Positions 1-64,000 of a DNA stretch of 64,000 nucleotides are shown here, one piece after another. The notes beneath the pieces were generated by a model. It had not been told where the DNA came from and ran no database searches. It was given only the letters and a program-made list of their open reading frames with translations. Made by a program: the position numbers and the translations under genes. The DNA lies in assembly GCF_027942865.1 (NCBI RefSeq), contig NC_134514.1, positions 996,169 through 1,060,168 of the forward strand, read 5' to 3'. This DNA is from Odontesthes bonariensis. Taxonomy: Eukaryota; Chordata; Actinopteri; Atheriniformes; Atherinopsidae. Position 1 is the stretch's first letter. Every line of letters starts with the position of its first letter.

Positions 1-3000
1 TGTCCTGTTTAACCCTCTTGTTGTCCTGTTTAACCCTCTTGTTGTCCTGTTTAACCCCCCTGTTGTCCTGTTTAACCCCCCTGTTGTCCTGTTTAACCCT
101 CCTGTTGTCCTGTTTAACCCCCCTGTTGTCCTGTTTAACCCTCCTGTTGTCCTGTTTAACCCCCCTGTTGTCCTGTTTAACCCCCCTGTTGTCCTTCTTT
201 AACCCTTCTGTTGTCCTGTTTAACCCTCCTGTTGTCCTGTTTAACCCTCCTGTTGTCCTGTTTAACCCCCCTGTTGTCCTGTTTAACCCCCCTGTTGTCC
301 TTCTTTAACCCTTCTGTTGTCCTGTTTAACCCTCCTGTTGTCCTGTTTAACCCTCCTGTTGTCCTGTTTAACCCTCCTGTTGTCCTGTTTAACCCCCCTG
401 TTGTCCTGTTTAACCCCCCTGTTGTCCTTCTTTAACCCTTCTGTTGTCCTGTTTAACCCTCTTGTTGTCCTGTTTAACCCTCTTGTTGTCCTGTTTAACC
501 CCCCTGTTGTCCTGTTTAACCCCCCTGTTGTCCTGTTTAACCCTCCTGTTGTCCTGTTTAACCCCCCTGTTGTCCTGTTTAACCCTCCTGTTGTCCTGTT
601 TAATCCTCCTGTTGTCCTGTTTAACCCTCCTGTTGTCCTGTTTAACCCTTCCTGTTGTCCTGTTTAACCCTCCTGTTGTCTTGTTTAACCCTCCTGTTGT
701 CTTGTTTAACCCTCCTGTTGTCCTGTTTAACCCTCCTGTTGTCTTGTTTAACCCTCCTGTTGTCCTGTTTAACCCTCCTGTTGTCCTGTTTAACCCTTCC
801 TGTTGTCCTGTTGTCCTGTTTAACCCTCCTGTTGTCCTGTTTAACCCTTCCTGTTGTCCTGTTTAACCCTCCTGTTGTCCTGTTTAACCCTCCTGTTGTC
901 TTGTTTAACCCTTCCTGTTGTCCTGTTTAACCCTCCTGTTGTCTTGTTTAACCCTCCTGTTGTCCTGTTTAACCCTCCTGTTGTCCTGTTTAACCCTCCT
1001 GTTGTCCTGTTTAACCCTCCTGTTGTCCTGTTTAACCCCCCTGTTGTCCTGTTTAACCCTCCTGTTGTCCTGTTTAACCCCCCTGTTGTCCTGTTTAACC
1101 CTTCCTGTTGTCCTGTTTAACCCTACTGTTGTCCTGTTTAACCCTCTTGTTGTCCTGTTTAACCCTCCTGTTGTTTTGTTTAACCCTCCTGTTGTCCTGT
1201 TTAACCCCCCTGTTGTTTTGTTTAACCCCCCTGTTGTCCTGTTTAACCCTCCTGTTGTTTTGTTTAACCCCCCTGTTGTCCTGTTTAACCCTCCTGTTGT
1301 CCTGTTTAACCCTCCTGTTGTCCTGTTTAACCCTCCTGTTGTTTTGTTTAACCCCCCTGTTGTCCTGTTTAACCCTCCTGTTGTCCTGTTTAACCCTCCT
1401 GTTGTCCTGTTTAACCCCCCTGTTGTCCTGTTTAACCCTCCTGTTGTCCTGTTTAACCCTCTTGTTGTCCTGTTTAACCCTCCTGTTGTTTTGTTTAACC
1501 CCCCTGTTGTCCTGTTTAACCCTCCTGTTGTCCTGTTTAACCCTCCTGTTGTCCTGTTGTCCTGTTTAACCCCCCTGTTGTCCTGTTTAACCCCCCTGTT
1601 GTCTTGTTTAACCCTCCTGTTGTCCTGCTTAACCCTCCTGTTGTCCTGTTTAACCCCCCTGTTGTCCTGTTTAATCCTCCTGTTGTCCTGTTTAACCCCC
1701 CTGTTGTCCTGTTTAACCCCCCTGTTGTCCTGTTTAACCCTCCTGTTGTCCTGTTTAACCCTCCTGTTGTCCTGTTTAACCCCCCTGTTGTCCTGTTTAA
1801 CCCCCCTGTTGTCCTGTTTAACCCTCCTGTTGTCCTGTTTAACCCCCCTGTTGTCCTGTTTAACCCCCCTGTTGTCCTGTTTAACCCTCCTGTTGTCCTG
1901 TTTAACCCTCCTGTTGTCCTGTTTAACCCTCCTGTTGTCCTGTTTAACCCTCCTGTTGTCCTGTTTAACCCCCCTGTTGTCCTGTTTAACCCCCCTGTTG
2001 TCCTGTTTAACCCTCCTGTTGTCCTGTTTAACCCCCCTGTTGTCCTGTTTAACCCCCCTGTTGTCCTGTTTAACCCTCCTGTTGTCCTGTTTAACCCTCC
2101 TGTTGTCCTGTTTAACCCCCCTGTTGTCCTGTTTAACCCTCCTGTTGTCCTGTTTAACCCTCCTGTTGTCCTGTTTAACCCTCCTGTTGTCCTGTTTAAT
2201 CCTCCTGTTGTCCTGTTTAACCCTCCTGTTGTCCTGTTTAACCCTCCTGTTGTCCTGTTTAACCCCCCTGTTGTCCTGTTTAACCCCCCTGTTGTCCTGT
2301 TTAACCCTCCTGTTGTCCTGTTTAATCCTCCTGTTGTCCTGTTTAACCCCCCTGTTGTCCTGTTTAACCCCCCTGTTGTCCTGTTTAACCCCCCTGTTGT
2401 CCTGTTTAACCCTCCTGTTGTCCTGTTTAACCCTCCTGTTGTCCTGTTTAACCCTCCTGTTGTCCTGTTTAACCCTACTGTTGTCCTGTTTAACCCCCCT
2501 GTTGTCCTGTTTAATCCTCCTGTTGTCCTGTTTAACCCTCCTGTTGTCCTGTTTAACCCCCCTGTTGTCCTGTTTAACCCCCCTGTTGTCCTGTTTAACC
2601 CTCCTGTTGTCCTGTTGTCCTGTTTAACCCTCTTGTTGTCCTGTTTAACCCCCCTGTTGTCCTGTTTAACCCTCCTGTTGTCCTGTTTAACCCTCCTGTT
2701 GTCCTGTTTAACCCTCCTGTTGTCCTGTTTAACCCCCCTGTTGTCCTGTTTAACCCTCCTGTTGTCCTGTTTAACCCTCCTGTTGTCCTGTTTAACCCTC
2801 CTGTTGTCCTGTTTAACCCTCCTGTTGTCCTGTTTAACCCTCCTGTTGTCCTGTTTAACCCTCCTGTTGTCCTGTTGTCCTGTTTAACCCTCTTGTTGTC
2901 CTGTTTAACCCCCCTGTTGTCCTGTTTAACCCTCCTGTTGTCCTGTTTAACCCTCCTGTTGTCCTGTTTAACCCTCCTGTTGTCCTGTTTAACCCTCCTG

Positions 3001-6000
3001 TTGTCCTGTTTAACCCCCCTGTTGTCCTGTTTAACCCCCCTGTTGTCCTGTTTAACCCTCCTGTTGTCCTGTTGTCCTGTTTAACCCTCTTGTTGTCCTG
3101 TTTAACCCCCCTGTTGTCCTGTTTAACCCTCCTGTTGTCCTGTTTAACCCTCCTGTTGTCCTGTTTAACCCCCCTGTTGTCCTGTTTAACCCTCCTGTTG
3201 TCCTGTTAACCCTCCTGTTGTCCTGTTTAACCCTCCTGTTGTCCTGTTTAACCCTCCTGTTGTCCTGTTTAACCCTCCTGTTGTCCTGTTTAACCCTCCT
3301 GTTGTCCTGTTTAACCCTCCTGTTGTCCTGTTTAACCCTCCTGTTGTCCTGTTTAACCCCCCTGTTGTCCTGTTTAACCCTCCTGTTGTCCTGTTTAACC
3401 CTCCTGTTGTCCTGTTTAACCCTCTTGCTGTCCTGTTTAACCCCCCTGTTGTCCTGTTTAACCCCCCTGTTGTCCTGTTTAACCCTCCTGTTGTCCTGTT
3501 TAACCCCCCTGTTGTCCTGTTTAACCCTCTTGTTGTCCTGTTTAACCCCCCTGTTGTCCTGTTTAACCCCCCTGTTGTCCTGTTTAACCCTCCTGTTGTC
3601 CTGTTTAACCCTCCTGTTGTCCTGTTTAACCCCCCTGTTGTCCTGTTTAACCCCCCTGTTGTCCTGTTTAACCCTCCTGTTGTCCTGTTTAACCCTCCTG
3701 TTGTCCTGTTTAACCCCCCTGTTGTCCTGTTTAACCCCCCTGTTGTCCTGTTTAACCCTCCTGTTGTCCTGTTGTCCTGTTTAACCCTCCTGTTGTCCTG
3801 TTTAACCCTCCTGTTGTCCTGTTTAACCCTCCTGTTGTCCTGTTGTCCTGTTTAACCCTCCTGTTGTCCTGTTTAACCCTCCTGTTGTCCTGTTTAACCC
3901 TCCTGTTGTCCTGTTTAACCCTCCTGTTGTCCTGTTTAACCCTCTTGTTGTCCTGTTTAACCCTCTTGTTGTCCTGTTTAACCCCCCTGTTGTCCTGTTT
4001 AACCCCCCTGTTGTCCTGTTTAACCCTCCTGTTGTCCTGTTTAACCCCCCTGTTGTCCTGTTTAACCCTCCTGTTGTCCTGTTTAACCCCCCTGTTGTCC
4101 TGTTTAACCCCCCTGTTGTCCTGTTTAACCCCCCTGTTGTCCTTCTTTAACCCTTCTGTTGTCCTGTTTAATCCTCCTGTTGTCCTGTTTAACCCTCCTG
4201 TTGTCCTGTTTAACCCTCCTGTTGTCCTGTTTAACCCTACTGTTGTCCTATTTAACCCTCCTGTTGTCCTGTTGTCCTGTTGTCCTGTTTAACCCTCCTG
4301 TTGTCCTGTTTAACCCTCCTGTTGTCCTGTTTAATCCTCCTGTTGTCCTGTTTAACCCTCCTGTTGTCCTGTTTAACCCTCCTGTTGTCCTGTTTAACCC
4401 TACTGTTGTCCTGTTTAACCCTCTTGTTGTCCTGTTTAACCCTCCTGTTGTTTTGTTTAACCCTCCTGTTGTCCTGTTTAACCCCCCTGTTGTTTTGTTT
4501 AACCCCCCTGTTGTCCTGTTTAACCCTCCTGTTGTTTTGTTTAACCCCCCTGTTGTCCTGTTTAACCCTCCTGTTGTCCTGTTTAACCCTCCTGTTGTCC
4601 TGTTTAACCCTCCTGTTGTTTTGTTTAACCCCCCTGTTGTCCTGTTTAACCCTCCTGTTGTTTTGTTTAACCCCCCTGTTGTCCTGTTTAACCCTCCTGT
4701 TGTTTTGTTTAACCCCCCTGTTGTCCTGTTTAACCCTCCTGTTGTCCTGTTTAACCCTCCTGTTGTTTTGTTTAACCCCCCTGTTGTCCTGTTTAACCCT
4801 CCTGTTGTCCTGTTTAACCCTCCTGTTGTCCTGTTTAACCCTCCTGTTGTCCTGTTTAACCCCCCTGTTGTCCTGTTTAACCCCCCTGTTGTCCTGTTTA
4901 ACCCTCCTGTTGTCCTGTTTAACCCCCCTGTTGTCCTGTTTAACCCTCCTGTTGTCCTGTTTAACCCTCCTGTTGTCCTGTTTAACCCCCCTGTTGTCCT
5001 GTTTAACCCTCCTGTTGTCCTGTTTAACCCTCTTGTTGTCCTGTTTAACCCTCCTGTTGTTTTGTTTAACCCCCCTGTTGTCCTGTTTAACCCTCCTGGT
5101 GTCCTGTTTAACCCCCCTGTTGTCCTGTTTAACCCTCCTGTTGTCCTGTTTAACCCTCTTGTTGTCCTGTTTAACCCTCCTGTTGTTTTGTTTAACCCTC
5201 CTGTTGTCCTGTTTAACCCCCCTGTTGTCCTGTTTAACCCTCCTGTTGTCCTGTTTAACCCCCCTGTTGTCCTGTTTAACCCTCCTGTTGTCCTGTTTAA
5301 CCCCCCTGTTGTCCTGTTTAACCCTCCTGTTGTCCTGTTTAACCCTCCTGTTGTCCTGTTTAACCCCCCTGTTGTCCTGTTTAACCCTCCTGTTGTCCTG
5401 TTTAACCCTCTTGTTGTCCTGTTTAACCCTCCTGTTGTCCTGTTTAACCCCCCTGTTGTCCTGTTTAACCCTCCTGTTGTCCTGTTTAACCCTCCTGTTG
5501 TCCTGTTTAACCCCCCTGTTGTCCTGTTTAACCCTCCTGTTGTCCTGTTTAACCCTCTTGTTGTCCTGTTTAACCCTCTTGTTGTCCTGTTTAACCCTCC
5601 TGGTGTCCTGTTTAACCCCCCTGTTGTCCTGTTTAACCCTCCTGTTGTCCTGTTTAACCCCCCTGTTGTCCTGTTTAACCCTCCTGTTGTCCTGTTTAAC
5701 CCTCCTGTTGTCCTGTTTAACCCCCCTGTTGTCCTGTTTAACCCTCCTGGTGTCCTGTTTAACCCTCCTGTTGTCCTGTTTAACCCCCCTGTTGTCCTGT
5801 TTAACCCTCCTGGTGTCCTGTTTAACCCTCCTGTTGTCCTGTTTAACCCCCTGTTGTCCTGTTTAACCCTCCTGTTGTCCTGTTTAACCCCCTGTTGTCC
5901 TGTTTAACCCTCCTGTTGTCCTGTTTAACCCTCCTGTTGTCCTGTTTAACCCTCCTGTTGTCCTGTTTAACCCCCCTGTTGTCCTGTTTAACCCTCCTGT

Positions 6001-7055
6001 TGTCCTGTTTAACCCTCCTGTTGTCCTGTTTAACCCTCCTGTTGTCCTGCTTAACCCTCCTGTTGTCCTGTTTAACCCCCCTGTTGTCCTGTTTAACCCT
6101 CCTGTTGTCCTGTTTAACCCTCCTGTTGTCCTGTTTAACCCTCCTGTTGTCCTGTTTAACCCTCCTGTTGTCCTGTTTAACCCCCTGTTGTCCTGTTTAA
6201 CCCTCCTGTTGTCCTGTTTAACCCTCCTGTTGTCCTGTTTAACCCTCCTGTTGTCCTGTTTAACCCCCCTGTTGTCTTGTTTAACCCTCCTGTTGTCCTG
6301 TTTAACCCTCCTGTTGTCCTGTTTAACCCCCCTGTTGTCCTGTTTAACCCCCCTGTTGTCCTGTTTAACCCTCCTGTTGTCCTGTTTAACCTTCCTGTTG
6401 TCCTGTTTAACCCTCCTGTTGTCCTGTTTAACCTTCCTGTTGTCCTGTTTAACCCTCCTGTTGTCCTGTTTAACCCTCCTGTTGTCCTGTTTAACCCCCC
6501 TGTTGTCTTGTTTAACCCTCCTGTTGTCCTGTTTAACCCTCCTGTTGTCCTGTTTAACCCCCCTGTTGTCCTGTTTAACCCCCCTGTTGTCCTGTTTAAC
6601 CCTCCTGTTGTCCTGTTTAACCTTCCTGTTGTCCTGTTTAACCCTCCTGTTGTCCTGTTTAACCTTCCTGTTGTCCTGTTTAACCCTCCTGTTGTCCTGT
6701 TTAACCCCCCTGTTGTCCTGTTTAACCCCCCTGTTGTCCTGTTTAACCTTCCTGTTGTCCTGTTTAACCCTCCTGTTGTCCTGTTTAACCCCCCTGTTGT
6801 CTTGTTTAACCCTCCTGTTGTCCTGTTTAACCCCCCTGTTGTCTTGTTTAACCCTCCTGTTGTCCTGTTTAACCCTCCTGTTGTCCTGTTTAACCCCCCT
6901 GTTGTCCTGTTTAACCCTCCTGTTGTCCTGTTTAACCTTCCTGTTGTCCTGTTTAACCCCCCTGTTGTCCTGTTTAACCCTCCTGTTGTCCTGTTTAACC
7001 CTCTGTTGTCCTGTTTAACCCTCCTGTTGTCCTGTTTAACCCTCCTGTTGTCCTG
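1..7055. repeat. 21-bp minisatellite array (TTAA-terminus derived)
   Basis: About 330 tandem copies of a 21-bp unit, TTAACCCTCCTGTTGTCCTG followed by T, run from the window edge to 7055. Most variation is CCCTCC versus CCCCCC. Rarer variants are TTGTTTTG (about 1170-1490 and 4448-5060), a 22-bp TCCTTCTTTAACCC type (about 190, 300, 425, 4140), and short units made by loss of the TTTAACC core (about 810, 1555, 2610, 2870, 3770, 4270). The array ends inside the terminus of a TTAA-type MITE. The period is a multiple of three without stops in several frames, so long open frames on both strands are artefacts. The left boundary lies outside the window. Confidence 0.97.
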
Positions 7056-7475
7056 CGGGTCCAAAGTGAGCCACCACCATGTTTAGCTGTAGAAAAAATA
7101 CCTTAAACTATCTTTTTCCAACTTGAATGTTATGACTTTTCCTAAAGGGACCCCATCAATTCAGAAGTAATTATTTCACATTTATATAATAGCAATAATA
7201 AACCTTTATTATGTAAAAGAAACCTGAGAAAACAAGAAAACTGTTGGTCCAACTGACAGTAAAAAAAAAAAAAGTGTAATCCTGAAAACGATTGTCTTTT
7301 TGTATTGTGTAACAAAAAATACATGATAAAAAATGTGTTGAATTGAGTTGAATAGATAAATAACAGGTGGTTTCATCATACTAAATAGATTTTGGATTTA
7401 AAATTAAATTAAGTTGCTTTATTTTGGGGCTTTGGTAGGGCGGGGCATTTCTGACCCGTAGGACAAAGGGAGTAA
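7036..7475 (+). mobile_element. piggyBac-like (TTAA) MITE, copy 1, fused to the 21-bp array
   Basis: TTAA at 7036-7039 is followed by CCCTCCTGTTGTCCTG and then CGGGTCC, after which unique sequence begins. The first roughly 240 bp after 7056 match the reverse complement of 36125-36540 nearly base for base, apart from an internal stretch of about 165 bp present only in the second copy. A degenerate inverted terminus (GACCCGTAGGACAAAGGGAG) lies at about 7452-7471. TTAA target preference plus CCCT-starting termini fit piggyBac-like elements. No transposase is encoded. The family name is inferred from the ends alone. Confidence 0.7.
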
Positions 7476-7679
7476 ACACAATGTTAAGACGAGTTAAAGT
7501 CAATCAGCTGGAGGCCTTTCAGAGAATCCACTGTTAGACGGGATGTTCCTGAGTTTAACAAAATTTTGAAGGTGAAAGAAGGCGGTCCTAGGAACCTGTT
7601 TTAAATGCGAGTCAGAGGACAGATCTTACCCGGCTCTCCCACAGAAACCCCTACAGAAGCCTCGAGTCCTAAAAATGCA
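7476..7679. other. unassigned spacer
   Basis: No coding potential, tandem repeat or recognisable element was seen between the MITE end and the LINE remnant. Confidence 0.5.
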
Positions 7680-11995: not shown

Positions 11996-12007
11996 CCTCA
12001 CGTCCTC

Positions 12008-14961
12008 CTAAACCCCGATGAACCCTACTGAACCCTGCTGAACCCTACTGAACCCTACTGAACCCTACTGAACCCTGCCGAACCCTCCCGAACCCTGCTG
12101 AACCCTGCTGAACCCTGCTGAACCCTGCTGAACCCTCCTGAACCCTGCCGAACCCTCCCGAACCCTGCTGAACCCTGCTGAACCCTCCTGAACCCTGCTG
12201 AACCCTGCTGAACCCTACTGAACCCTACTGAACCCTGCTGAACCCTGTTGAACCCTGCTGAACCCTACTGAACCCTCCTGAACCCTGCCGAACCCTACTC
12301 AACCCTCCTGAACCCTACCGAACCCTCCCGAACCCTGCCGAACCCTACTCAACCCTGCCGAACCCTGCTCAACCCTACTGAACCCTGCTGAACCCTGCCG
12401 AACCCTACTCAAGCCTCCTGAACCCTACCGAACCCTGCTCAACCCTGCTGAACCCTGCTGAACCCTGCTGAACCCTACTGAGCCCTGATGAACCCTACCA
12501 AACCCTGCCGAACCCTGCTCAACCCTACTGAACCCTACCAAACCCTGCCGAACCCTACTCAACCCTCCTGAACCCTACCGAACCCTCCCGAACCCTGCTC
12601 AACCCTCCTGAACCCTCCTGAACACTGCCGAACCCTGCTGAACCCTGCTGAACCCTACCGAACCCTCCTGAACCCTGCTGAACCCTCCTGAACCCTGCTG
12701 AACCCTACTGAGCCCTGATGAACCCTACCAAACCCTGCCGAACCCTGCTCAACCCTACTGAACCCTACCAAACCCTGCCGAACCCTACTCAACCCTCCTG
12801 AACCCTACCGAACCCTCCCGAACCCTACTCAACCCTGATGAACCCTACCGAACCCTGCCGAACCCTACTCAACCCTGCTGAACCCTGCTGAACCCTACCG
12901 AACCCTGCCGAACCCTGCTCAACCCTCCTGAACCCTCCTGAACCCTGCCGAACCCTGCTGAACCCTGCTGAACCCTACCGAACCCTCCTGAACCCTGCTG
13001 AACCCTCCTGAACCCTGCCGAACCCTGCCGAACCCTGCCGAACCCTGCTGAACCCTGCTGAACCCTACCGAACCCCGCCGAACCCTGCCGAACCCTGCTC
13101 AACACTACTGAACCCTGCTGAACCCTACCGAACCCTGCTCAACCCTACCGAACCCTACTGAACCCTCCTGAACCCTGCCGAACCCTGCCGAACCCTGCCG
13201 AACCCTACCGAACCCTCCTGAACCCTACCGAACCCTACTCAACCCTCGCGAACCCTGCTGAACCCTGCTGAACCCTGCCGAACCCTCCTGAACCCTCCTG
13301 AACCCTACCGAACCCTCCTGAACCCTACCGAACCCTGCTGAACCCTGCTGAACCCTCCTGAACCCTACCGAACCCTACTCAACCCTCGCGAACCCTGCTG
13401 AACCCTGCTGAACCCTGCCGAACCCTCCTGAACCCTCCCGAACCCTGCTCAACCCTCCTGAACCCTCCTGAACACTGCCAAACCCTGCTGAACCCTGCTG
13501 AACCCTACCGAACCCTCCTGAACCCTGCTGAACCCTCCTGAACCCTGCTGAACCCTACTGAGCCCTGATGAACCCTACCAAACCCTGCCGAACCCTGCTC
13601 AACCCTACTGAACCCTACCAAACCCTGCCGAACCCTACTCAACCCTCCTGAACCCTACCGAACCCTCCCGAACCCTACTCAACCCTGATGAACCCTACCG
13701 AACCCTGCCGAACCCTACTCAACCCTGCTGAACCCTGCTGAACCCTACCGAACCCTGCCGAACCCTGCTCAACCCTCCTGAACCCTCCTGAACCCTGCCG
13801 AACCCTGCTGAACCCTGCTGAACCCTACCGAACCCTCCTGAACCCTGCTGAACCCTCCTGAACCCTGCCGAACCCTGCCGAACCCTGCCGAACCCTGCTG
13901 AACCCTGCCGAACCCCGCCGAACCCTGCCGAACCCTGCTCAACACTACTGAACCCTGCTGAACCCTACCGAACCCTGCTCAACCCTACCGAACCCTACTG
14001 AACCCTCCTGAACCCTGCCGAACCCTGCCGAACCCTGCCGAACCCTACCGAACCCTCCTGAACCCTACCGAACCCTACTCAACCCTCGCGAACCCTGCTG
14101 AACCCTGCTGAACCCTGCTGAACCCTGCCGAACCCTCCTGAACCCTTCTGAACCCTACCGAACCCTCCTGAACCCTACCGAACCCTGCTGAACCCTGCTG
14201 AACCCTACTCAACCCTGCTGAACCCTGCTGAACCCTACCAAACCCTGCCGAACCCTACTCAACCCTGATGAACCCTACCGAACCCTGCCGAACCCTACTC
14301 AACCCTGCTGAACCCTGCTGAACCCTACCAAACCCTGCCGAACCCTACTCAACCCTCCTGAACCCTACCGAACCCTCCCGAACCCTACTCAACCTTGATG
14401 AACCCTACCGAACCCTGCCGAACCCTACTCAACCCTGCTGAACCCTGCTCAACCCTCCTGAACCCTCCTGAACCCTGCCGAACCCTGCTGAACCCTGCTG
14501 AACCCTACCGAACCCTCCTGAACCCTGCTGAACCCTCCTGAACCCTGCCGAACCCTGCCGAACCCTGCCGAACCCTGCTGAACCCTGCTGAACCCTACCG
14601 AACCCCGCCGAACCCTGCCGAACCCTGCTCAACACTACTGAACCCTGCTGAACCCTACCGAACCCTGCTCAACCCTACCGAACCCTACTGAACCCTCCTG
14701 AACCCTGCCGAACCCTGCCGAACCCTGCCGAACCCTACCGAACCCTCCTGAACCCTACCGAACCCTACTCAACCCTCGCGAACCCTGCTGAACCCTGCTG
14801 AACCCTGCTGAACCCTGCTGAACCCTGCCGAACCCTCCTGAACCCTCCTGAACCCTACCGAACCCTCCTGAACCCTACCGATCCCTGCTGAACCCTGCTC
14901 AACCCTCACGAACCCTGCTGAACCCTACCGAACCCTGCTGAACCCTGCTCAACCCTGCTGG
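12008..14961. repeat. 10-bp minisatellite array (AACCCTNCTG type)
   Basis: About 295 copies of a 10-bp unit, mostly AACCCTGCTG, AACCCTACCG, AACCCTCCTG or AACCCTACTC. It begins about 12 bp upstream of the OR-A start codon. Every unit contains AACCCT, the vertebrate telomere hexamer, but the period is 10, so this is not telomere sequence. Variant markers (AACACT, AGCCCTGATG, AACCCTCGCG) recur with the same order about 850, 840 and 690 bp apart, showing higher-order duplication. Short open frames inside it are artefacts. Confidence 0.97.
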
Positions 14962-18801: not shown

Positions 18802-18860
18802 GGCTGTGTTCGAAACCGCATACTACATACTACATACTGCATACTGCATACTGCATACTA

Positions 18861-18894
<34 letters not shown>

Positions 18895-18895
18895 A

Positions 18896-18929
<34 letters not shown>

Positions 18930-18972
18930 ACATACTGCATACTACATACTACATACTACATACCACATACTA

Positions 18973-19013
<41 letters not shown>

Positions 19014-19028
19014 ACATACCGCATACTA

Positions 19029-19076
<48 letters not shown>

Positions 19077-19120
19077 ACATACTGCATACTGCATACTGCA
19101 TACTACATACTGCATACTGT

Positions 19121-19153
<33 letters not shown>

Positions 19154-25044: not shown

Positions 25045-27645
25045 CACATGGAGAAAAGGCATGAAATAAGTCTTTACCAAGAGGGAAAAAGCATTGGGCC
25101 AGAGGTATGGAACGAGCCTTTACTAATAGGGAGAAAGCATTGGGACAGAGGTATGGAACGAGCCTTTACTAATAGGGAAAAAGCATTGGGACAGAGGTAT
25201 GGAACGAGTCTTTACCAATAGGGAAAAAGCATTTGGACAGAGGTATGGAAGGAGTCTTTATCAATGGGGAAAAAGCATTGGGACAGAAGTATGGAACAAG
25301 TCTTTACCAATAGGGACAAAGCTATGGGACAGAGGCATGAAACGAGTCTTTACCAATAGGGAAAAAGTTTTCGGACAGAGGTATGGAACAAGTCTTTACC
25401 AATAGGGACAAAGCATTGGGACAGAGGTGTGGAACAAGTCTTTACCAATAGGGAAAAAGCTATGGGACAGAGGTATGAAACAAGTCTTTACCAATAGGGA
25501 AAAAGCATTGGGACAGAGGTATGAAACAAGTCTTTACCAATAGGGAAAAAGCATTTGGACAGAGGTATGGAACGAGTCATTACCAATTGGGAAAAAGCAT
25601 TTGGACAGCGGCATGAAACGAGTTTTTACCAATAGGGAATAAGCATTCGGACAGAGGTATGGAACGAGTCATTACCAATAGGGACAAAGCTATGGGAAAG
25701 AGGCATGAAACGAGTTTTTACCAATAGGGAACAAGCATTCGGACAAAGGTATGGAACGAGTCATTACCAATAGGGAAAAAGCATTTGGACTGAGGTATGG
25801 AACGAGTCTTTACCAATAGGGAAAAAGCATTTGGACAGCGGCATGAAACGAGTTTTTACCAATAGGGAAAAAGCATTCAGACAGAGGTATGGAACGAGTC
25901 ATTACCAATAGGGAAAAAGCATCTGGACAGAGGTATGTAACGAGTCATTACCAATAGGGAAAAAGCATTGGGACAGAGGCATGAAACAAGTCTTTACCAA
26001 TAGGGACAAAGCTATGGGACAGAGGCATGAAACGAGTTTTTACCAATAGGGAAAAAGCATTGGGACAAAGGTATGGAACGAGTCATTACCAATAGGGAAA
26101 AAGCATTTGGACTGAGGTATGGAACGAGTCTTTACCAATAGGGAAAAAGCATTCAGACAGAGGAATGGAACGAGTCATTACCAATAGGGAAAAAGCATTG
26201 GGACAGAGGTATGGAACGAGTCATTACCAATAGGGAAAAAGCATTGGGACAGAGGTATGGAACGAGTCTTTACCAATAGGAAAAAAGCATTGGGACAGAG
26301 GTATGGAACGAGTCTTTACCAATAGGGAAAAAGCATTGGGACAGAGGTATGGAACAAGTCTTTACCATGAGAGAAAAAGCATTGGGACAGAGGTATGGAA
26401 CAAGTCTTTACCAATAGGAAAAAAATTGGGAAAGAGGTATGGAACGAGTCATTACCAATAGGGAAAAAGCATTTGGACAGAGGTATGGAACAAGTCTTTA
26501 CCAAAAGGAAAAAACATTGGGAAAGAGGTATGGAACGAGTCTTTACGTATAGGGAAAAATCATTGGGACAAAGGTATGGAACAAGTCTTTACGAATAGGG
26601 ACAATGCAATGGGACAGAGGCATGAAACGAGTCTTTACCAATAGGGAAAAAGCATTCGGACAGAGGTATGGAACGAGTCATTACCAATAGGGAAAAAGCA
26701 TTTGGACAGAGGCATGAAACGAGTCTTGACCATGAGGGAAAAAGCATTTGGACAGAGGTATTGAACGAGTCTTTACCAATGGGGAAAAAGCATTTGGACA
26801 GAGGTATGGAACGAGTCATTACCAATAGGGAAAAAGCATTTGGACAGAGGTATGGAACAAGTCTTTACCAAAAGGAAAAATCATTGGGACAAAGGTATGG
26901 AACAAGTCTTTACGAATAGGGACAATGCAATGGGACAGAGGCATGAAACGAGTCTTTACCAGTAAGGAAAAAGCATTGGGACAGAGGTATGGAACGAGTC
27001 TTTTCCAATAGGGAAAAAGCATTCGGACAGAGGTATGGAACGAGTCTTTACCAATAGGGAAAAAGTATTGGGACAGAGGTATGGAACGAGTCTTTACCAA
27101 TAGGGAAAAAGCATTCGGAGAGAGGTATGGAACGAGTCTTTACCAATAGGGAAAAAGCATTGGGACAGAGGTATGGAACGAGTCTTTACCAATAGGGAAA
27201 AAGCATTCGGACAGAGGTATAACGAGTCATTACCAATAGGGAAAAAGCATTTGGACAGAGGTATAACGAGTCATTACCAATAGGGAAAAAGCATTTGGAC
27301 AGAGGTATGGAACGAGTCTTGACCATGAGGGAAAAAGCATTTGGACAGAGGTATTGAACGAGTCTTTACCAATGGGGAAAAAGCATTTGGACAGAGGTAT
27401 TGATCGAGTGTTTACCAGTAAGGAAAAAGCATTGGGACAGAGGTATGGAACGAGTCTTTTCCAATAGGGAAAAAGCATTCGGACAGAGGTATGGAACGAG
27501 TCTTTACCAATAGGGAAAAAGTATTGGGACAGAGGTATGGAACGAGTCTTTACCAATAGGGAAAAAGCATTCGGAGAGAGGTATGGAACGAGTCTTTACC
27601 AATAGGGAAAAAGCATTGGGACAGAGGTATGGAACGAGTCATCGC
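25045..27645. repeat. 46-bp minisatellite array
   Basis: About 56 copies of a 46-bp unit built from GAGTCTTTACCAATAGGG, AAAAAGCATTGGGACAGAGG and TATGGAAC. Variants include TCATTACC versus TCTTTACC, CATTTGG/CATTCGG/CATTGGG, and a GGGACAAAGCTATGGGACAG type. Blocks of several units recur in the same order (for example about 26950-27110 and 27415-27590), so amplification also acts on multi-unit blocks. Open frames across it are repeat artefacts. Confidence 0.97.
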
Positions 27646-29207: not shown

Positions 29208-30748
29208 GGGACATAGCTATGGCCACACCTATGGCCACACCTATGGCCACACCTATGGACAGCTATGGCCACACCTATGGTCACACCTATGGACACACCT
29301 ATGGCCACACCTATGGACACCTATGGCCACACCTATGGCCACACCTATGGCCACACCTATGGTCACACCTATGGTCACACCTATGGCCACACCTATGGCC
29401 ACACCTATGGTCACACCTATGGACACCTATGGCCACACCTATGGCCACACCTATAGTCACACCTATGGTCACACCTATGGCCACACCTATGGACACACCT
29501 ATGGACACACCTATGGCCACACCTATGGACACACCTATGGTCACACCTATGGCCACACCTATGGACACACCTATGGTCACACCTATGGCCACACCTATGG
29601 CCACCTATGGCCACACCTATGGTCACACCTATGGACACACCTATGGTCACACCTATGGACACACCTATGGTCACACCTATGGTCACACCTATGGACACAC
29701 CTATGGACACACCTATGGTCACACCTATGGTCACACCTATGGCCACACCTATGGACACCTATGGACACCTATGGCCACACCTATGGCCACACCTATGGTC
29801 ACACCTATGGCCACACCTATGGCCACACCTATGGACACACCTATGGTCACACCTATGGCCACACCTATGGATACACCTATGGCCACACCTATGGTCACAC
29901 CTATGGCCACACCAATGGATACACCTATGGCCACACCTATGGCCACACCTATGGTCACACCTATGGCCACACCTATGGTCACACCTATGGTCACCTATGG
30001 TCACACCTATGGACACACCTATGGTCACACCTATGGACACACCTATGGTCACACCTATGGTCACCTATGGTCACACCTATGGCCACACCTATGGTCACAC
30101 CTATGGACACACCTATGGTCACACCTATGGCCACACCTATGGACACACCTATGGTCACACCTATGGTCACACCTATGGCCACACCTATGGACACACCTAT
30201 GGTCACACCTATGGCCACACCAATGGATACACTTATGGCCACACCTATGGCCACACCTATGGTCACACCTATGGACACACCTATGGTCACACCTATGGTC
30301 ACACCTATGGTCACCTATGGTCACACCTATGGCCACACCTATGGTCACACCTATGGACACACCTATGGTCACACCTATGGTCACACCTATGGACACACCT
30401 ATGGTCACACCTATGGCCACACCTATGGACACACCTATGGTCACACCTATGGACACACCTATGGTCACACCTATGGCCACACCTATGGACACACCTATGG
30501 TCACACCTATGGTCACACCTATGGCCACACCTATGGCCACACCTATAGTCACACCTATGGTCACACCTATGGACACACCTATGGTCACACCTATGGTCAC
30601 ACCTATGGACACACCTATGGTCACACCTATGGTCACACCTATGGTCACCTATGGACACACCTATAGTCACACCTATGGACACACCTATGGTCACACCTAT
30701 GGTCACACCTATGGCCACACCTATGGACACCTATGGCCACACCAGTCT
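29208..30748. repeat. 12-bp minisatellite array (CCTATGGNCACA)
   Basis: About 128 tandem copies of a 12-bp unit. Variation is almost confined to one position, C, T or A after CCTATGG, with rare CCTATAG, CCAATGG and GGATACA changes. Occasional 10-bp units lack one CA. The period lacks stops in several frames on both strands, which creates long meaningless open frames. Confidence 0.97.
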
Positions 30749-31195: not shown

Positions 31196-31964
31196 TTGGA
31201 GATGCAGGGGGGCTTCAGGGTCACGGCAGGGTCACAGCAGGGGGGCTTCAGGGTCACAGCAGGGGGGCCACAGCAGGGGGGCCACAGCAGGGGGGCCACA
31301 GCAGGGGGGCCACAGCAGGGGGGCTTTAGGGTCACAGCAGAGGGGCTTCAGGATCACAGCAGGGGGGCCACAGCAGGGGGGCCACAGCAGGGGGGCTTTA
31401 GGGTCACAGCAGAGGGGCTTCAGGATCACAGCAGGGGGGCTTCAGGGTCACGGCAGGGTCACAGCAGAGGGGCTTCAGGGTCACAGCAGGGGGGCTTCAG
31501 GGTCACACCAGGGGGGTCACACCAGGGGGGTCACACCAGGGGGGTCACAGCAGGGGGGCTTCAGGGTCACACCAGGGGGGTCACACCAGGGGGGTCACAG
31601 CAGAGGGGCTTCAGGGTCACAGCAGAGGGGCTTCAGGGTCACACCAGGGGGGTCACACCAGGGGGGTCACAGCAGAGGGGCTTCAGGGTCACAGCAGGGG
31701 GGCTTCAGGGTCACAGCAGAGGGGCTTCAAGGTCACAGCAGAGGGGCTTCAAGGTCACAGCAGAGGGGCTTCAAGGTCACAGCAGAGGGGCTTCAGGGTC
31801 ACAGCAGGGGGGCTTCAGGGTCACAACAGGGGGGTCACAGCAGGGGGGCTTCAGGGTCACAGCAGAGGGGCTTCAGGGTCACAGCAGGGGGGCTTCAGGG
31901 TCACAGCAGGGGGGCTTCAGGGTCACAGCAGGGGGGCCACAGCAGGGGGGCTTCAGGGTCACAC
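31196..31964. repeat. 22-bp minisatellite array (GGGTCACAGCAGGGGGGCTT type)
   Basis: Units of 22 bp (GGGTCACAGCAGGGGGGCTT plus CA) are mixed with shorter GGTCACACCAGGGG and GGCCACAGCAGGGG units. The array resumes for about 30 bp at 32543-32575 after a hAT copy, so the hAT inserted into or next to it. Open frames over it are artefacts. Confidence 0.95.
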
Positions 31965-33429: not shown

Positions 33430-33578
33430 GATCTCTGATCTGATACCAGGGTACCACTGTTGCCTTCACTTCCTCCTTTGACCCTTGGTATTATTCAGAC
33501 TTCTCTTCTTCCTTGTTCTTGGCGTTGCCATCAGTTGGAAGCACTAGATCTATCACTGCTGCAGTTCTGTAGTTTGGT
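33430..33578 (-). pseudogene. LINE reverse-transcriptase C-terminal fragment, downstream half
   Basis: Minus-strand frames read TAAVIDLVLPTDGNAKNKEE, then (after a break) YQGSKEEVKATVVP. These match the AVVIDVAIPSDSN..KKE and KYQGLKEELE..WKVKATVVPVV part of a widespread fish non-LTR retroelement protein. The matching upstream half lies at 35775-36115, with the 23-bp array between them. It is not functional. The exact LINE clade is not assigned. Confidence 0.6.
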
Positions 33579-35774
33579 GACCCCCACATCACCCTGTTGG
33601 TGACCCCCATATCGCCCTGTTGGTGACCCCCATATCGCCCGGTTGGTGACCCCCATATCTCCCGGTTGGTGACCCCCACATAGCCCGGTTGGTGACCACC
33701 ATATCTCCCGGTTGGTGACCCCCGTATCGCCCGGTTGGTGACCCCCACGTCGCCCGGTTGGTGACCCCCACGTCGCACGGTTGGTGACCACCACGTCGCC
33801 CTGTTGGTGACCCCCACGTCGCCCGGTTGGTGACCCCCACGTCGCCCGGTTGGTGACCACCACGTCGCCCTGTTGGTGACCCCCACGTTGCCCGGTTGGT
33901 GACCCCCACGTCGCCCTGTTGGTGACCCCCACGTCGCCCGGTTGGTGACCCCTGCATCGCCCGTTTGGTGACAACCACATCGCCCGGTTTGTGACCCCCA
34001 CATCACCTGGTTGGTGACCCCCACGTCGCCCTGTTGGTGACCCCCACATCGCCCTGTTGGTGACCCCCACGTCGCCCTGTTGGTGACCCCCACGTCGCCC
34101 GGTTGGTGACCACCACATCGCCCGGTTGGTGACCCCTGCATCGCCCGGTTGGTGACAACTACATCGCCCTGTTGGTGATCCCCACATCGCCCGGTTGATG
34201 ACCCCCAGATCACCTGGTTGGTGACCCCCACATCGCCCGGTTGGTGACCCCCACGTCGCCCGGTTGGTGACCCCCATATCGCCCTGTTGGTGATCCCCAC
34301 ATTGCCCGGTTGGTGACCCCCACGTCGCCCTGTTGGTGACCCCCACGTCGCCCGGTTGGTGACCCCCACATCGCCCGGTTGGTGACCCCCACGTCACCCT
34401 GTTGGTGACCCCCACATCGCCCTGTTGGTGACCCCCACGTCGCCCGGTTGGTGACCCCCATATCGCCCTGTTGGTGATCCCCACATCGCCCGGTTGGTGA
34501 CCCCCACGTCGCCCGGTTGGTGACCCCCACATCGCCCTGTTGGTGACAACCACGTCGCCCGGTTGGTGACCCCCATATCGCCCTGTTGGTGATCCCCACA
34601 TCGCCCGGTTGGTGACCCCCACGTCGCCCGGTTGGTGACCCCCACGTCGCCCGGTTGGTGACCCCCATATCGCCCTGTTGGTGATCCCCACATCGCCCGG
34701 TTGGTGACCCCCACGTCACCCTGTTGGTGACCCCCACATCGCCCTGTTGGTTACCCCCACGTCGCCCGGTTGGTGACCCCCACGTCGCCCTGTTGGTGAC
34801 CCCCACGTCGCCCGGTTGATGACCCCCACGTCGCCCGGTTGATGACCACCACGTCGCCCTGTTGGTGACCCCCACGTCGCCCGGTTGGTGACCACCACAT
34901 CGCCCTGTTGGTGACCCCCACGTCGCCCTGTTGGTGACCACCACATCGCCCTGTTGGTTACCCCCACGTCGCCCGGTTGGTGACCCCCACGTCGCCCTGT
35001 TGGTGACCCCCACGTCGCCCGGTTGATGACCACCACGTCGCCCCGTTGGTGACCCCCACGTCGCCCGGTTGGTGACCACCACATCGCCCTGTTGGTGACC
35101 CCCACATCGCCCGGTTGGTGACCCCCACATCGCCTGGTTGGTGACCCCCACGTCACCCTGTTGGTGACCCCCACATCGCCCTGTTGGTGACCCCCACATC
35201 GCCCGGTTGGTGACCCCCACGTCGCCCTGTTGGTGACCCCCACATCGCCCTGTTGGTGACCCCCACGTCGCCCGGTTGATGACCACCACGTCGCCCTGTT
35301 GGTGACCCCCACGTCGCCCGGTTGGTGACCACCACGTCGCCCGGTTGGTGACCACCACGTCGCCCTGTTGGTGACCCCCACATCGCCCTGTTGGTTACCC
35401 CCACGTCGCCCGGTTGGTGACCCCCACGTCGCCCTGTTGGTGACCCCCACGTCGCCCGGTTGATGACCACCACGTCGCCCCGTTGGTGACCCCCACGTCG
35501 CCCGGTTGGTGACCACCACGTCGCCTGGTTGGTGACCCCCACATCGCCCTGTTGGTGACCACCACGTCGCCCTGTTGGTGACCCCCACTTCGCCCGGGTG
35601 GTGACCACCACTTCGCCCGCTTGGTGACCCCTGCATCGCCCGTTTGGTGACAACCACATCGCCCAGTTGGTGACCCCCACATCGCCCGGTTGGTGACCCC
35701 CACATCGCCCGGTTGGTGACCCCCACATCGCCCGGTTGATGACCCCCACATCGCCCGGTTGATGACCCCCACTG
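33579..35774. repeat. 23-bp minisatellite array (GTTGGTGACCCCCACGTCG type)
   Basis: About 95 copies of a 23-bp unit. Variants are CCCACGTCG/CCCACATCG/CCCATATCG, GCCCGG/GCCCTG, and GACCACC/GACCCCC/GATCCCC. Because 23 is not a multiple of three, three units make a 23-residue peptide period on the minus strand, giving several long but meaningless open frames. Larger blocks repeat (for example GTTGGTTACCCCCACG at about 34746, 34951 and 35391). It is located inside a LINE coding region. Confidence 0.97.
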
Positions 35775-36115
35775 GACCGTCTCAGAGGCCTCTTTGCACA
35801 GCCTGCACCTGGGGTCCTGTCCGGTATGCTGGACCTCGGCCTGTTATTAGTGCCTCTGCGCTGTGTTTCAGACCAGAGGTTTCCAGCCACTGATCAGACC
35901 TCTGGTGACCTGCAATCTGTCGGTGGTACATCGAGCAGACGCTTATCTTTCCAAGAGGTTTTCTCCTCTTCCTTTTTTCTTTCCCCGGGTTTCAGCTACC
36001 TGAGACACTCACTTCATACTGGGGGCCAACTTCCTGATGTCTTCCTGGATGTTTGACATTTCTTAATGGATAGCGGCTCTGATGCTAATCGGCTTCCCTC
36101 CATCTTTATAGTGTA
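35775..36115 (-). pseudogene. LINE reverse-transcriptase C-terminal fragment, upstream half
   Basis: Minus-strand frames contain VAGNLWSETQRRGTNNRPRS and, in another frame, DPRCRLCKEA followed by SETVQ, then run straight into the 23-bp array. DPRCRLC..E.ETVQH is the zinc-knuckle-like motif near the C-terminus of a common fish LINE protein. Frames are broken several times. With 33430-33578 it brackets the array. Confidence 0.55.
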
Positions 36116-36546
36116 CAATCAGCAGTTTTCAGGATTACACTTTTTTTTTTACCACAAACCAACTGTCAGTTGGACCAACAGTTTTCTTGTTTTCTCAGTT
36201 CTCTTTTACATAATAAAGGTTTATTATTGCTATTATATAAATGTGAAGTAATTACTTCTGAATTAATTATATTGAAAGGGAAAAAAACAGTGAACTTTTT
36301 TCTACTGTTTAAATGTTTTTATAATTCACGGGTCAAAAATGACCCATAAGACAATCTTTGTACCCTAGTGGTGTACAGCCCACATGGAAACATAAACAGA
36401 AATAAAGTCTGACTTTTTCTAATGATGGGGTCCCTTTAGGAAAAGTCATAACATTTCAAGTTGGAAAAAGATAGTTTAAGGTGTTTTTTCTACAGCTAAA
36501 CATGGTGGTGGCTCACTTTTGACCCGCAGGACAACAGGAGGGTTAA
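36116..36546 (-). mobile_element. piggyBac-like (TTAA) MITE, copy 2
   Basis: The right end is GACCCGCAGGACAACAGGAG, then GG, then TTAA (36543-36546), the inverse of the copy 1 terminus at 7036-7060. The sequence matches copy 1 through CAGCTAAACATGGTGGTGGC and AAAAGTCATAACATTTCAAG. About 165 bp present here (roughly 36258-36420) are absent from copy 1. The left end is not clear and abuts the LINE fragment. No transposase. Confidence 0.65.
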
Positions 36547-40146: not shown

Positions 40147-41897
40147 AAGCTCTGTGGCTAATTCAGGTGCTACGGCCTCTGTGGCTAATTCAGGCGCTGC
40201 GGCCTCTGTGGCTAATTTAGGCGCTACGGCCTCTGTGGCTAATTCAGGCGCTACGGCCTCTGTGGCTAATTCAGGCGCTACGGCCTCTGTGGCTAATTCA
40301 GGCGCTACGGCCTCTGTGGCTAATTCAGGCGCTGCGGCCTCTGTGGCTAATTTAGGCGCTACGGGCTCTGTGGCTAATTCAGGCGCTACGGGCTCTGTGG
40401 CTAATTCAGGCGCTGCGGCCTCTGTGGCTAATTTAGGCGCTGCGGCCTCTGTGGCTAATTCAGGCGCTACGGGCTCTGTGGCTAATTCAGGCGCTGCGGC
40501 CTCTGTGGCTAATTCAGGCGCTACGGCCTCTGTGGCTAATTCAGGCGCTACGGCCTCTGTTGCTAATTCAGGCGCTACGGCCTCTGTGCTAATTTAGGCG
40601 CTACGGGCTCTGTGGCTAATTCAGGCGCTACGGCCTCTGTGGCTAATTCAGGCGCTACGGACTCTGTGCTAATTTAGGCGCTGCGGACTCTGTGGCTAAT
40701 TCAGGCGCTACGGCCTCTGTGGCTAATTCAGGCGCTACGGCCTCTGTGGCTAATTCAGGCGCTACGGACTCTGTGGCTAATTCAAGCGCTACGGCCTCTG
40801 TGGCTAATTCAGGCGCTACGGCCTCTGTGGCTAATTCAGGCGCTACGGCCTCTGTGCTAATTCAGGCGCTACGGCCTCTGTGCTAATTTAGGCGCTACGG
40901 GCTCTGTGGCTAATTCAGGCGCTACGGCCTCTGTGGCTAATTCAGGCGCTACGGCCTCTGTGGCTAATTCAGGCGCTACGGCCTCTGTGGCTAATTCAGG
41001 CACTACGGCCTCTGTGCTAATTCAGGCGCTACGGCCTCTGTGCTAATTCAGGCGCCACGGCCTCTGTGGCTAATTCAGGCGCTACGGCCTCTGTGGCTAA
41101 TTCAGGCGCTACGGCCTCTGTGGCTAATTCAGGCGCTACGGCCTCTGTGGCTAATTCAGGCGCTACGGCCTCTGTGCTAATTCAGGCGCTACGGCCTCTG
41201 TGCTAATTTAGGCGCTACGGGCTCTGTGGCTAATTCAGGCGCTACGGCCTCTGTGGCTAATTTAGGCGCTACAGGCTCTGTGCTAATTTAGGCGCTACGG
41301 CCTCTGTGGCTAATTTAGGCGCTACGGCCTCTGTGCTAATTTAGGCGCCACGGGCTCTGTGGCTAATTCAGGCGCTACGGCCTCTGTGCTAATTTAGGCG
41401 CTACGAGCTCTGTGGCTAATTCAGGCGCTACGGCCTCTGTTGCTAATTTAGGCGCTACGGGCTCTGTGGCTAATTCAGGCGCTACGGCCTCTGTGGCTAA
41501 TTCAGGCGCTACGGCCTCTGTGGCTAATTCAGGCGCTACGGCCTCTGTGCTAATTTAGGCGCTACGGGCTCTGTGGCTAATTCAGGCGCTACGGCCTCTG
41601 TGGCTAATTCAGGCGCTACGGCCTCTGTGGCTAATTCAGGCGCTACGGGCTCTGTGGCTAATTCAGGCGCTACGGCCTATGTGCTAATTTAGGCGCTACG
41701 GGCTCTGTGGCTAATTCAGGCGCTACGGCCTCTGTGGCTAATTCAGGCGCTACGGCCTCTGTGGCTAATTCAGGCGCTACGGCCTCTGTGGCTAATTCAG
41801 GCGCTACGGCCTCTGTGCTAATTCAGGCGCTACGGGCTCTGTGGCTAATTCAGGCGCTGCGGCCTCTGTGGCTAATTCAGGCGCTACGGCCTTTGTG
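40147..41897. repeat. 27-bp minisatellite array in gypsy-like remnant
   Basis: About 65 copies of a 27-bp unit (CTCTGTGGCTAATTCAGGCG plus CTACGGC), with 25-bp variants that lack one GG (CTCTGTGCTAATT). The right edge runs into a gag-like coding remnant at 41898-42085. TCTGTGGCT is shared with the 24-bp arrays further right. Plus-strand frames of the ANSGATASV type are repeat artefacts. Confidence 0.96.
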
Positions 41898-42085
41898 GCT
41901 GCCGGGGTCCAGCTGGAGGTCTCTGGACTCTGTGGCTATGGCTGGAGAGGAGCTGTACAGCGCGCCTACCTCTTCTGGGTTCATGCCAAAAATGTCCTGG
42001 CATGGCTCCATACATCGTCCAGTTTAGCCGTCCATTTCTGGAGTCTCCGCATCTTTAAAAGAAAATTTAAGAGTTTATTATGGTG
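41898..42085 (-). pseudogene. gypsy-like gag fragment (copy 1)
   Basis: The minus strand reads LLNFLLKMRRLQKWTAKLDD, VWSHARTFLA, NPEEVGALYSSSPAIATES and RDLQLDPGSHKGRSA. This parallels the copy at 48916-49189, which reads LLDFLLEKRNLQNWTENLAD, VLTHARSVQR and DIFDMEP. A few frame breaks are present. The array follows directly at its C-terminal side. The gag assignment rests on the LTR found upstream of copy 2. Confidence 0.5.
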
Positions 42086-43949: not shown

Positions 43950-45117
43950 GGGCTGTCTTCTTCTCAATGCAAAAAAGACAAAAGAACTGATAATTGATTT
44001 CAGGACGGGGAGTCATATCCACCAGAGTATGGTCATAAATGGGGAAGGGATTGAGGTTGTGGGCAATTACAAATACCTGGGAACAATAATAGATGACAAA
44101 TTAACATGGGCTTGGAATACCGATGCCATCTATAAAAAGGGGCTGCAAAGGCTTTATTTTATGCGAAAGCAAAGGAATTGAAGAGTCGACAGAAACATGA
44201 TGCGTCTTTTTTACCATTCTTTTGTTGAGAGCATTTTATGTTTCTGCTCTGTGGCCTGGTATTTTTCTCTGTCAGTAGCAAATAAAAACAAGCTTCATAA
44301 GATAATTAATATGGCCAGCAAGATTGCCTGCCAGCCATTTAACAGCATGGCCATGACTGTTGAAGCAAGGGTGGTAAAGAAGGCACATACTTTCTGTGAT
44401 GATGTGTCACACCCCTTACATCAGAAATATGAGTTGTTGCCTTCAGGCAGGAGGTTCAGGCTGCCTTTATTCCAGACAAACAGAGCCTGTAGATCATTCA
44501 TACCCACCAGTACATCCCTGTTAAATAAGGGACTGTGAAATTGTACCTTAACAGACATCCGAAGTCTCCCGGAAGGTCCGGGAGTCTCCCTGATATTGAT
44601 AGTTAATCACGGATGCCCGCGAGTCGGATAAAATATCCCGGATTTTAGACTATTCGAGGGAGTTTTTTTTTTTTTTTTCAATGCGAGTGAGAGCGTGCAG
44701 GCAATAAAATAACTCGTGCACCATGCGCGTTTCGACGGCGCAGGCACGAGAGAGAGAGGGGTGTGGGGAGAGGTTGCTTGTGAAACCTGTGCGTATCTGT
44801 CCAAAGCGACTGCTTGTCGGGGGGGACGACGACTGAGTAATCTCCCTGAAATGAGTTTTTGGAACTTGGGATGTCTGCCTTAATAACCCATTGCACTTGG
44901 TCTCCGAATAACTGCACTTTACAATTGTATTCTATTTTAAAATATGAGGGGTTTGTTCTTTGTTCTATGTCATCCTGTCTTTTTTGTCCTGGGGTGGGGG
45001 TGGGGTGTGCTTGTTTATTGTGTATTTTTGTTTTTTGTAATTGTATCAGACGCACTGTCAATGGCACAGAACAATTTTCTGCAAAGACAAATAAATCTAT
45101 CTATCTATCTTTCTATC
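43950..45117 (+). mobile_element. Rex1-like LINE inserted in the 24-bp array
   Basis: The C-terminal part of a Rex1/CR1-type protein: LNAKKTKELIIDF, GNYKYLGTIIDDKLTW, then after a frame break MMRLFYHSFVESILCFCSVA, RVVKKAHTFCDDVSHPLHQK and RSFIPTSTSLLNKGL before a stop at 44538. The 3' UTR holds a 326-bp DNA transposon and ends in a (TCTA)n tail (45094-45117), typical for Rex1. It is 5' truncated and frameshifted, so inactive. Confidence 0.85.
44552..44877. mobile_element. DNA transposon Z, copy 1 (6-bp target duplication)
   Basis: The termini CAGACATCC and GGATGTCTG are flanked by the 6-bp duplication CCTTAA (44546-44551 and 44878-44883). Subterminal sequence includes the imperfect palindrome TCCCGGAAGGTCCGGGAG. 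It is an internally deleted, inverted relative of the 946-bp copy at 45903-46848. It sits in the 3' UTR of the Rex1-like LINE. No coding sequence. Confidence 0.85.
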
Positions 45118-45835
45118 TATGGGCTCTGTGGCTGCTAGCTCTCTGGACTCTGTGGCTGCTAGCTCTCTAGACTCTGTGGCTGCTAGCTCTCTGGGCTCAG
45201 TGGCTGCTAGCTCTCTGTGCTCTGTGGCTGCTAGCTCTCTGGACTCTGTGGCTGCTAGCTCTCTGGGCTCTGTGGCTTCTAGCTCTCTTGGCTCAGTGGC
45301 TGCTAGCTCTCTGGACTCTGTGGCTGCTAGCTCTCTGGACTCTGTGGCTGCTAGCTCTCTGGGCTCTGTGGCTTCTAGCTCTCTTGGCTCAGTGGCTGCT
45401 AGCTCTCTGGACTCTGTGGCTGCTAGCTCTCTGGACTCTGTGGCTGCTAGCTCTCTGGGCTCTGTGGCTGCTAGCTCTCTGGGCTCTGTGGCTGCTAGCT
45501 CTCTGGACTCTGTGGCTGCTAGCTCTCTGGACTGTGGCTGCTAGCTCTCTGGAGTCTGTGGCTGCTAGCTCTCTGGACTCTGTGGCTGCTAGCTCTCTGG
45601 ACTCTGTGGCTGCTAGCTCTCTGGGCTCTGTGGCTGCTAGCTCTCTGGACTCTGTGGCTGCTAGCTCTCTGGGCTCTGTGGCTGCTAGCTCTCTGGGCTC
45701 TGGCTGCTAGCTCTCTGGACTCTGTGGCTGCTAGCTCTCTGGACTCTGTGGCTGCTAGCTCTCTGGACTCTGTGGCTGCTAGCTCTCTGGGCTCTGTGGC
45801 TGCTAATTCTCTGGACTCTGTGGCTTCTAGCTCTA
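45118..45835. repeat. 24-bp minisatellite, element X copy 2 (right part)
   Basis: About 30 units of TCTGTGGCTGCTAGCTCTCT plus GGAC or GGGC, with a few shortened units (for example near 45535 and 45700). It resumes exactly after the Rex1 (TCTA)n tail and stops at 45836, where the block duplicated from upstream of OR-D begins. Confidence 0.96.
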
Positions 45836-63893: not shown

Positions 63894-64000
63894 CTGGGAG
63901 TCTGTGGACTGTGGTGTTGGAGAGGTGAGGGAGGATCTGTACAGCGTGATGAGTTTTTCTGGCTCCATGTCAAAAATGTCCAGCAACAAATCACGCTGTA
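63894..64000 (-). pseudogene. gypsy-like gag fragment, element X copy 4 (cut by window end)
   Basis: The minus strand reads SVQRDLLLDIFDMEPEKLI followed by TLYRSSLTSPTPQSTDSQS, continuing past the position where copy 3 has a stop (MEP then stop). It then meets a TAG before the array. It resembles the NPEEVGALYSSSPAIATES of copy 1. It runs off the window. Confidence 0.5.

Follow-up and report, generated by a model that had tools for sequence, protein, structure and literature searches.

A 21-bp array that runs into a MITE body

The window, a 64,000-nucleotide stretch of Odontesthes bonariensis DNA (G000:C14:996169-1060168), opens within a tandem array of 21-bp units that TRF places at positions 1-7055, on the plus strand. 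An 18-mer search allowing up to three mismatches gave 332 matches in the window, compared with 0.14 expected from shuffled sequence. Each unit combines TTAA with the outermost 16 bp of one MITE end (the 5′ terminus) and a spacer T. The final unit (7036-7055) continues as CGGGTCCAAAGTGAGCC into the interior of a MITE, and together with this innermost unit the MITE copy spans 7036-7490 on the plus strand. Positions 7056-7475 are MITE body, which extends to about 7490; the copy is internally deleted, and the 3′ tip present in other copies is missing after TTAAGAC. A copy of the same MITE family with a truncated body lies on the minus strand at 36115-36546.

The window contains the array's right-hand portion only. 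In the 10 kb that precede the window (L009), we place the start of the array at C14:990877 (L009 position 4709), 5.3 kb upstream of the window, which gives a full length of 12,347 bp (12.35 kb). The sequence before it is non-array flank, ending ...CGGTTTCTTTA. The earlier note, made from the window alone, had read the unit as the MITE terminus plus TTAA and T, the last unit at 7036 as passing into true MITE interior, and the copy ending at 36543-36546 as having the terminus only once; all three readings were borne out by the identity of unit and terminus and by inspection of the two copies. Its array of at least 7 kb is present, and the size is corrected here to 12,347 bp.

Splitting the array at TTAA[CT]C[CT] yields 581 units, and a spacing rule yields 568 (247+321). 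The 581 units are of 24 types, the most frequent being TTAACCCTCCTGTTGTCCTGT (289 of 581); 549 are 21 bp long and 15 are 29 bp long, with an additional 8 bp. The string of units contains repeated blocks of unit variants, such as unequal exchange would leave. No insertions were found between the 581 units, the largest unit spacing being 37 bp. Each unit had also been proposed to offer a fresh TTAA target and a potential transposase end. The uninterrupted units, each containing just the tip of the terminal repeat, do not support this proposal, nor do they exclude it.

Long arrays of short units are difficult to assemble, and a short terminal duplication might in principle have been inflated by mis-assembly. 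Such an artefact would have to account for the 24 types of unit and the internal structure of the 581-unit array, for the different variant make-up of other arrays, and for copies of 2-4 units (see below), which are short enough to be safe; we therefore regard it as highly improbable.

Tandem repeats with a period of at least 6 make up 36% of the window. Other minisatellites, with units of 7-46 bp, lie at 12004-14960, 18818-19153, 25069-27640, 29217-30743, 31216-31963, 33574-35772, 40150-41900, 45116-45834 and 63424-63895.

The element and its two ends

Alignment of copies defines an element mostly of about 560-650 bp and bounded by TTAA, of the form TTAA-CCCTCCTGTTGTCCTGCGGGTC ... GGGAGTAAACACAATGTTAAGACCGCACAAAGGG-TTAA. 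Of the 58 copies read, 34 have a recognised 3′ terminus, which in 31 of these 34 ends exactly in TTAA, with flanks that differ between copies; among the 24 copies in which it was not recognised, 10 come from stretches of only 680-695 bp. A TTAA target site is thus found at both ends of the MITE. The end motif CC[C/T]T is found as well, as CCCT at the 5′ end and as inverted CCCT or CCTT at the 3′ end in the copies shown. In the available part of a study of coral elements, piggyBac-type MITEs are described as having this CC[C/T]T motif and terminal inverted repeats of 12-19 bp (PMC2872659). With its TTAA and CC[C/T]T ends the MITE agrees with piggyBac, and it is probably a non-autonomous member of that superfamily.

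The outermost match between the two ends is only about 4 bp long (CCCT). In copy L029 the inverted repeat covers 40 columns, 33 of them identical, and its start lies at base 7 on the 5′ side and at base 33 on the 3′ side. Terminal asymmetry is known from insect piggyBac, and the offset inverted repeat of this MITE can be likened to it.

Among the copies compared, arrays were found at the 5′ end only. None of the 34 copies (of 58) with a recognised 3′ terminus carries a tandem array there, and in 33 of the 34 no second 3′ terminus occurs within 60 bp, less than 60 bp of flank being covered for five of the 34. One weak match to a second 3′ terminus, with three errors, was seen in L070 and resembles a chance match.

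The base that precedes TTAA is T in 38 of 55 single copies. At array edges, which were scored by hand (n=19) with a search pattern that excludes G two bases upstream, T precedes the first TTAA in 14 cases and A, C or G in five. The idea that the spacer T is simply the local flank base fits many loci and was rejected as a general account, five of the 19 edges being non-T.

Copies with one, two or many ends

The terminus followed by CGGGTC occurs as an exact match in 119 copies in the genome, the first 100 of which are listed, and more than 100 single copies scattered through the genome have a terminus identical to the array unit. We searched for MITE junctions with a preceding unit, allowing up to three mismatches, and obtained 39 matches, of which 29 were classed as tandem by the presence of GTCYTGY ahead of the last TTAA. 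The copy at C7:4551172 (L058) meets this rule and was nevertheless excluded, only about 10 of its upstream bases being unit-like. Of the ten junctions not classed as tandem, which include this copy, reading showed three to be single (C3:3036369, C15:1861794 and C16:2272729), and six were treated as single or undecided (C16:2783392, C19:6418102, C25:4676804, C28:10458503, C28:22717266 and C29:26681549). A separate search gave one further tandem copy, C12:31393956, which was read. At least 30 MITE copies therefore carry two or more tandem ends (29 plus C12:31393956); these junction counts are lower bounds, and one search missed the window's own, existing junction. When the next 20 listed copies were read, all 20 were single, sites read earlier, two arrays included, having been passed over in their choice.

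As to the excluded, single-ended copy L058, its flank ends in GTTGTCTTGT, in which ten bases resemble the end of a unit, by chance or as the remnant of a second unit.

The tandem copies that were read have two units (C2:993159 and C12:31393956), three (C6:40370978 and C28:2070547), four (C20:35581372), 17 (on C3; 16 by splitting at TTAA[CT]C[CT]), 86 (C12:40137657) and 581 (the window array on C14). For 14 further arrays, unit numbers were estimated from coordinates alone on the assumption of an uninterrupted array, giving 4, 5, 5, 5, 9, 11, 18, 22, 33, 65, 81, 184, 320 and about 1,105 units, the last at C21:837606-860827. The coordinate estimates up to 65 units come out as whole numbers in eight of ten cases. 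Two features expected of a minisatellite derived from a transposable element are thus seen here: the unit is part of a dispersed element to which the arrays are attached, and intermediate unit numbers exist.

Array and MITE fill one insertion at the C12 copy

The 86-unit copy on C12 sits within a dispersed repeat. With its flanks joined at a single TTAA (235 bp), 40 places from 129 candidates were scored elsewhere in the genome, and in all 40 the match crosses the joint uninterrupted, at 82-88% identity. Array and MITE together therefore fill one insertion at this copy. The joined-flank result would fit both growth of the array after insertion and arrival of the array with the MITE. A search for the empty site of this copy by a 32-bp pattern, with up to three mismatches, gave no match.

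These observations bear on the possibility that the array came first, MITEs having inserted beside or into an older 21-bp satellite that merely resembles their terminus. The earlier note had named arrays at loci without a MITE as the finding that would overturn its own reading. Arrays adjoin MITE bodies, and among 23 loci with a tandem outer edge the junction search gave no body junction for five (C6:40369210, C19:364053, C20:35714319, C20:35823864 and C21:936293), which is what an older satellite could leave. Against it, the dispersed single copies whose terminus is identical to the unit number more than 100, and the array passes into the body with no shift of register and on one side only. 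At the C12 copy, where the flanks with array and MITE taken out match without a break in every scored place, the array-first account is contradicted directly. We consider it most unlikely. The earlier claim that the MITE end, TTAA included, was the seed of the repeat is by comparison well supported: the genome-wide tabulation of copies with one, two, three or more ends gives a graded series in which bodies of one kind carry 1, 2, 3, 4, 17, 86 and 581 ends, and the joined flanks of one array copy have uninterrupted matches at other places in the genome.

The 10 kb beside the C12 array (L015, C12:40144000-40153999) are tandem repeat throughout according to TRF, and the 21-bp unit has no match in them.

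Chromosomal position of tandem and single copies

Contig ends are taken here as chromosome ends, which is an assumption. Of the 30 tandem copies, 29 lie less than 3 Mb from a contig end; the exception is the two-ended copy C12:31393956, at 9.8 Mb. Among the first 100 of the 119 exact copies, 84 are less than 5 Mb from a contig end, where length alone would predict 25%, and 96 fall in whichever half of their contig is favoured. In the same 100 copies the median distance to a contig end is 0.79 Mb for tandem copies (n=13) and 2.65 Mb for single ones (n=87; one-sided Mann-Whitney P=1.2e-6). Since 51 of the 87 single copies are likewise less than 3 Mb from a contig end, a distal position is not enough to produce an array.

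In the sister subfamily GTCTTGCGGGTCAAAA, the 169 copies are spread along the contigs. Among the 100 of these that are listed, all four tandem copies lie less than 3 Mb from an end, compared with 20 of the 96 counted as single (P=0.004), although two of the four tandem copies share a variant unit pair and are perhaps not independent. In two subfamilies the tandem copies lie closer to contig ends than the single-ended copies do, and expansion depends on chromosomal position. The share of tandem repeat is 38% at less than 1.2 Mb from an end (178 kb) and 7-8% farther in (83 kb), a contrast that comes from 31 stretches and is inflated, some of the distal ones having been chosen for their arrays.

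As to subfamily CCTGCGGGTC, copies that have the CCTG terminus are concentrated towards one end of each contig, whereas copies of the form CTTG...CAAAA are spread. Most of the differences between the two are changes from A/T to G/C. Purely as an idea, the crowding might be due to GC-biased conversion in the neighbourhood of chromosome ends.

Proposed growth of the array and number of origins

We suggest with good confidence that this is a transposon-end minisatellite, in which the MITE tip with its TTAA seeded an array that was enlarged by exchange near chromosome ends. In the proposed course of events, a non-autonomous and probably piggyBac-like MITE would enter a TTAA site. Slippage or microhomology would then give a tandem duplication of the 5′ tip with its TTAA, 20 bp and one further base. 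Close to chromosome ends, in the zone rich in minisatellites, unequal exchange or slippage would add units to tips with two to a few ends, at the locus studied here up to 581, and some few-ended copies may have moved or exchanged as such.

The tandem-ended MITE may instead have arisen only once, in which case the array copies would descend from a single founder by transposition or by exchange between chromosome ends, growing or shrinking later. At C6:40370942 and C20:35581336, different flanks surround the same 42-bp unit pair, which includes a rare variant, as common descent would predict, but the bodies of these two copies differ. Similarly, at C21:1016830 and C28:2070547, two of the five arrays of the CTTG subfamily that were read, CCTG units occur in the array although the junction unit is CTTG; in three of the five (C2, C6 and C20:35581), the units have GTCTTG, as does their own junction. 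The CCCCCC variant is common in arrays of several chromosomes and yet stands at only three MITE junctions genome-wide, two of which are arrays. This distribution, and the non-T base ahead of some array edges noted above, would also fit a founder. On the other hand, the arrays are borne by two body subfamilies, CCTGCGGGTCCA and CTTGCGGGTCAA (the CTTG subfamily), and for four array copies the nearest bodies are single-ended. A tree of 58 bodies is star-like, with 7 of 55 inner branches starred, and leaves the array label undecided. A single founder is thus a tenable but less probable account, and we lean towards few-ended tips having arisen more than once and then grown and partly moved or exchanged.

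As judged from sequence, tandem-ended MITEs might themselves be mobile. The outermost unit would then act as the transposon end, extra units would be extra ends, and the growing minisatellite would be carried to new TTAA sites. Mobility of this kind would predict the C6/C20 variant pair in different flanks, a base other than T ahead of some arrays, and a two-ended copy as far as 9.8 Mb from the contig end. Exchange between chromosome ends would equally account for the variant pair and the non-T bases, and we think it rather unlikely that such MITEs move.

Relation to known transposon-derived satellites

In Xenopus, the MITE, tandem array and composite forms of Xstir reportedly coexist (work of Hikosaka and Kawahara in 2004), the repeat being internal MITE sequence. 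The co-occurring forms resemble those described here, whereas a repeat of internal sequence differs from one of tip plus target site, so far as the available parts of two later papers describe Xstir (PMC12628747, PMC2872659).

It is already known that satellites arise from pieces of transposons, and the accessible portion of a review states that they can derive from the terminal inverted repeats of DNA transposons (PMC12628747). This is a general statement, and the same portion describes no series of increasing unit number built from the outermost tip and its TTAA. In frogs, subtelomeric minisatellites are derived from SINE/tRNA-V tails, with recombination proposed as the driver (PMC10794172, in excerpt). 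There, as here, a piece of a dispersed element has expanded, in the frogs only in subtelomeric copies; the frog unit is a 52-bp piece of the SINE 3′ tail, whereas the unit here is a 21-bp DNA-transposon tip with its target site. By that study's own statement, cause and effect are inseparable in it. The coral CMITEs are piggyBac-type MITEs with TTAA target sites that form tandem arrays, for which slippage is proposed; their repeated unit is the whole MITE and not a 21-bp end, according to the sections available (PMC2872659). In Drosophila virilis, the TIR-220 repeats of Tetris show terminal-inverted-repeat units giving rise to satellite arrays of kb size in a specific chromosomal setting. Unlike the present units, they are repeats of about 220 bp, internal to long foldback terminal inverted repeats and located in beta-heterochromatin, as given in the part of the paper at hand (PMC4079207).

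A literature search by topic gave no case of a DNA-transposon tip plus target site as the unit of a growth series in one genome, and a search by sequence string gave no fish repeat among the titles listed. The route from dispersed element to satellite is mostly deduced from its final products. In the present case a single genome holds copies with 1, 2, 3, 4, 17, 86 and 581 tandem ends, for which single-ended copies of the same subfamilies serve as controls. Because graded copies and controls occur in one genome, the first duplication and the role of chromosome ends become testable with reads and related genomes.

Two further pairs of copies have related surroundings. Those at C7:3205313 and C7:3224992 (L056 and L057) belong to a segmental duplication in inverted orientation, about 2.8 kb long and 96% identical. 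Those at C4:1287005 and C4:1468078 (L042 and L043) have about 115 bp of 5′ flank in common and different 3′ flanks, perhaps through insertion in one repeat family or as a recombinant.
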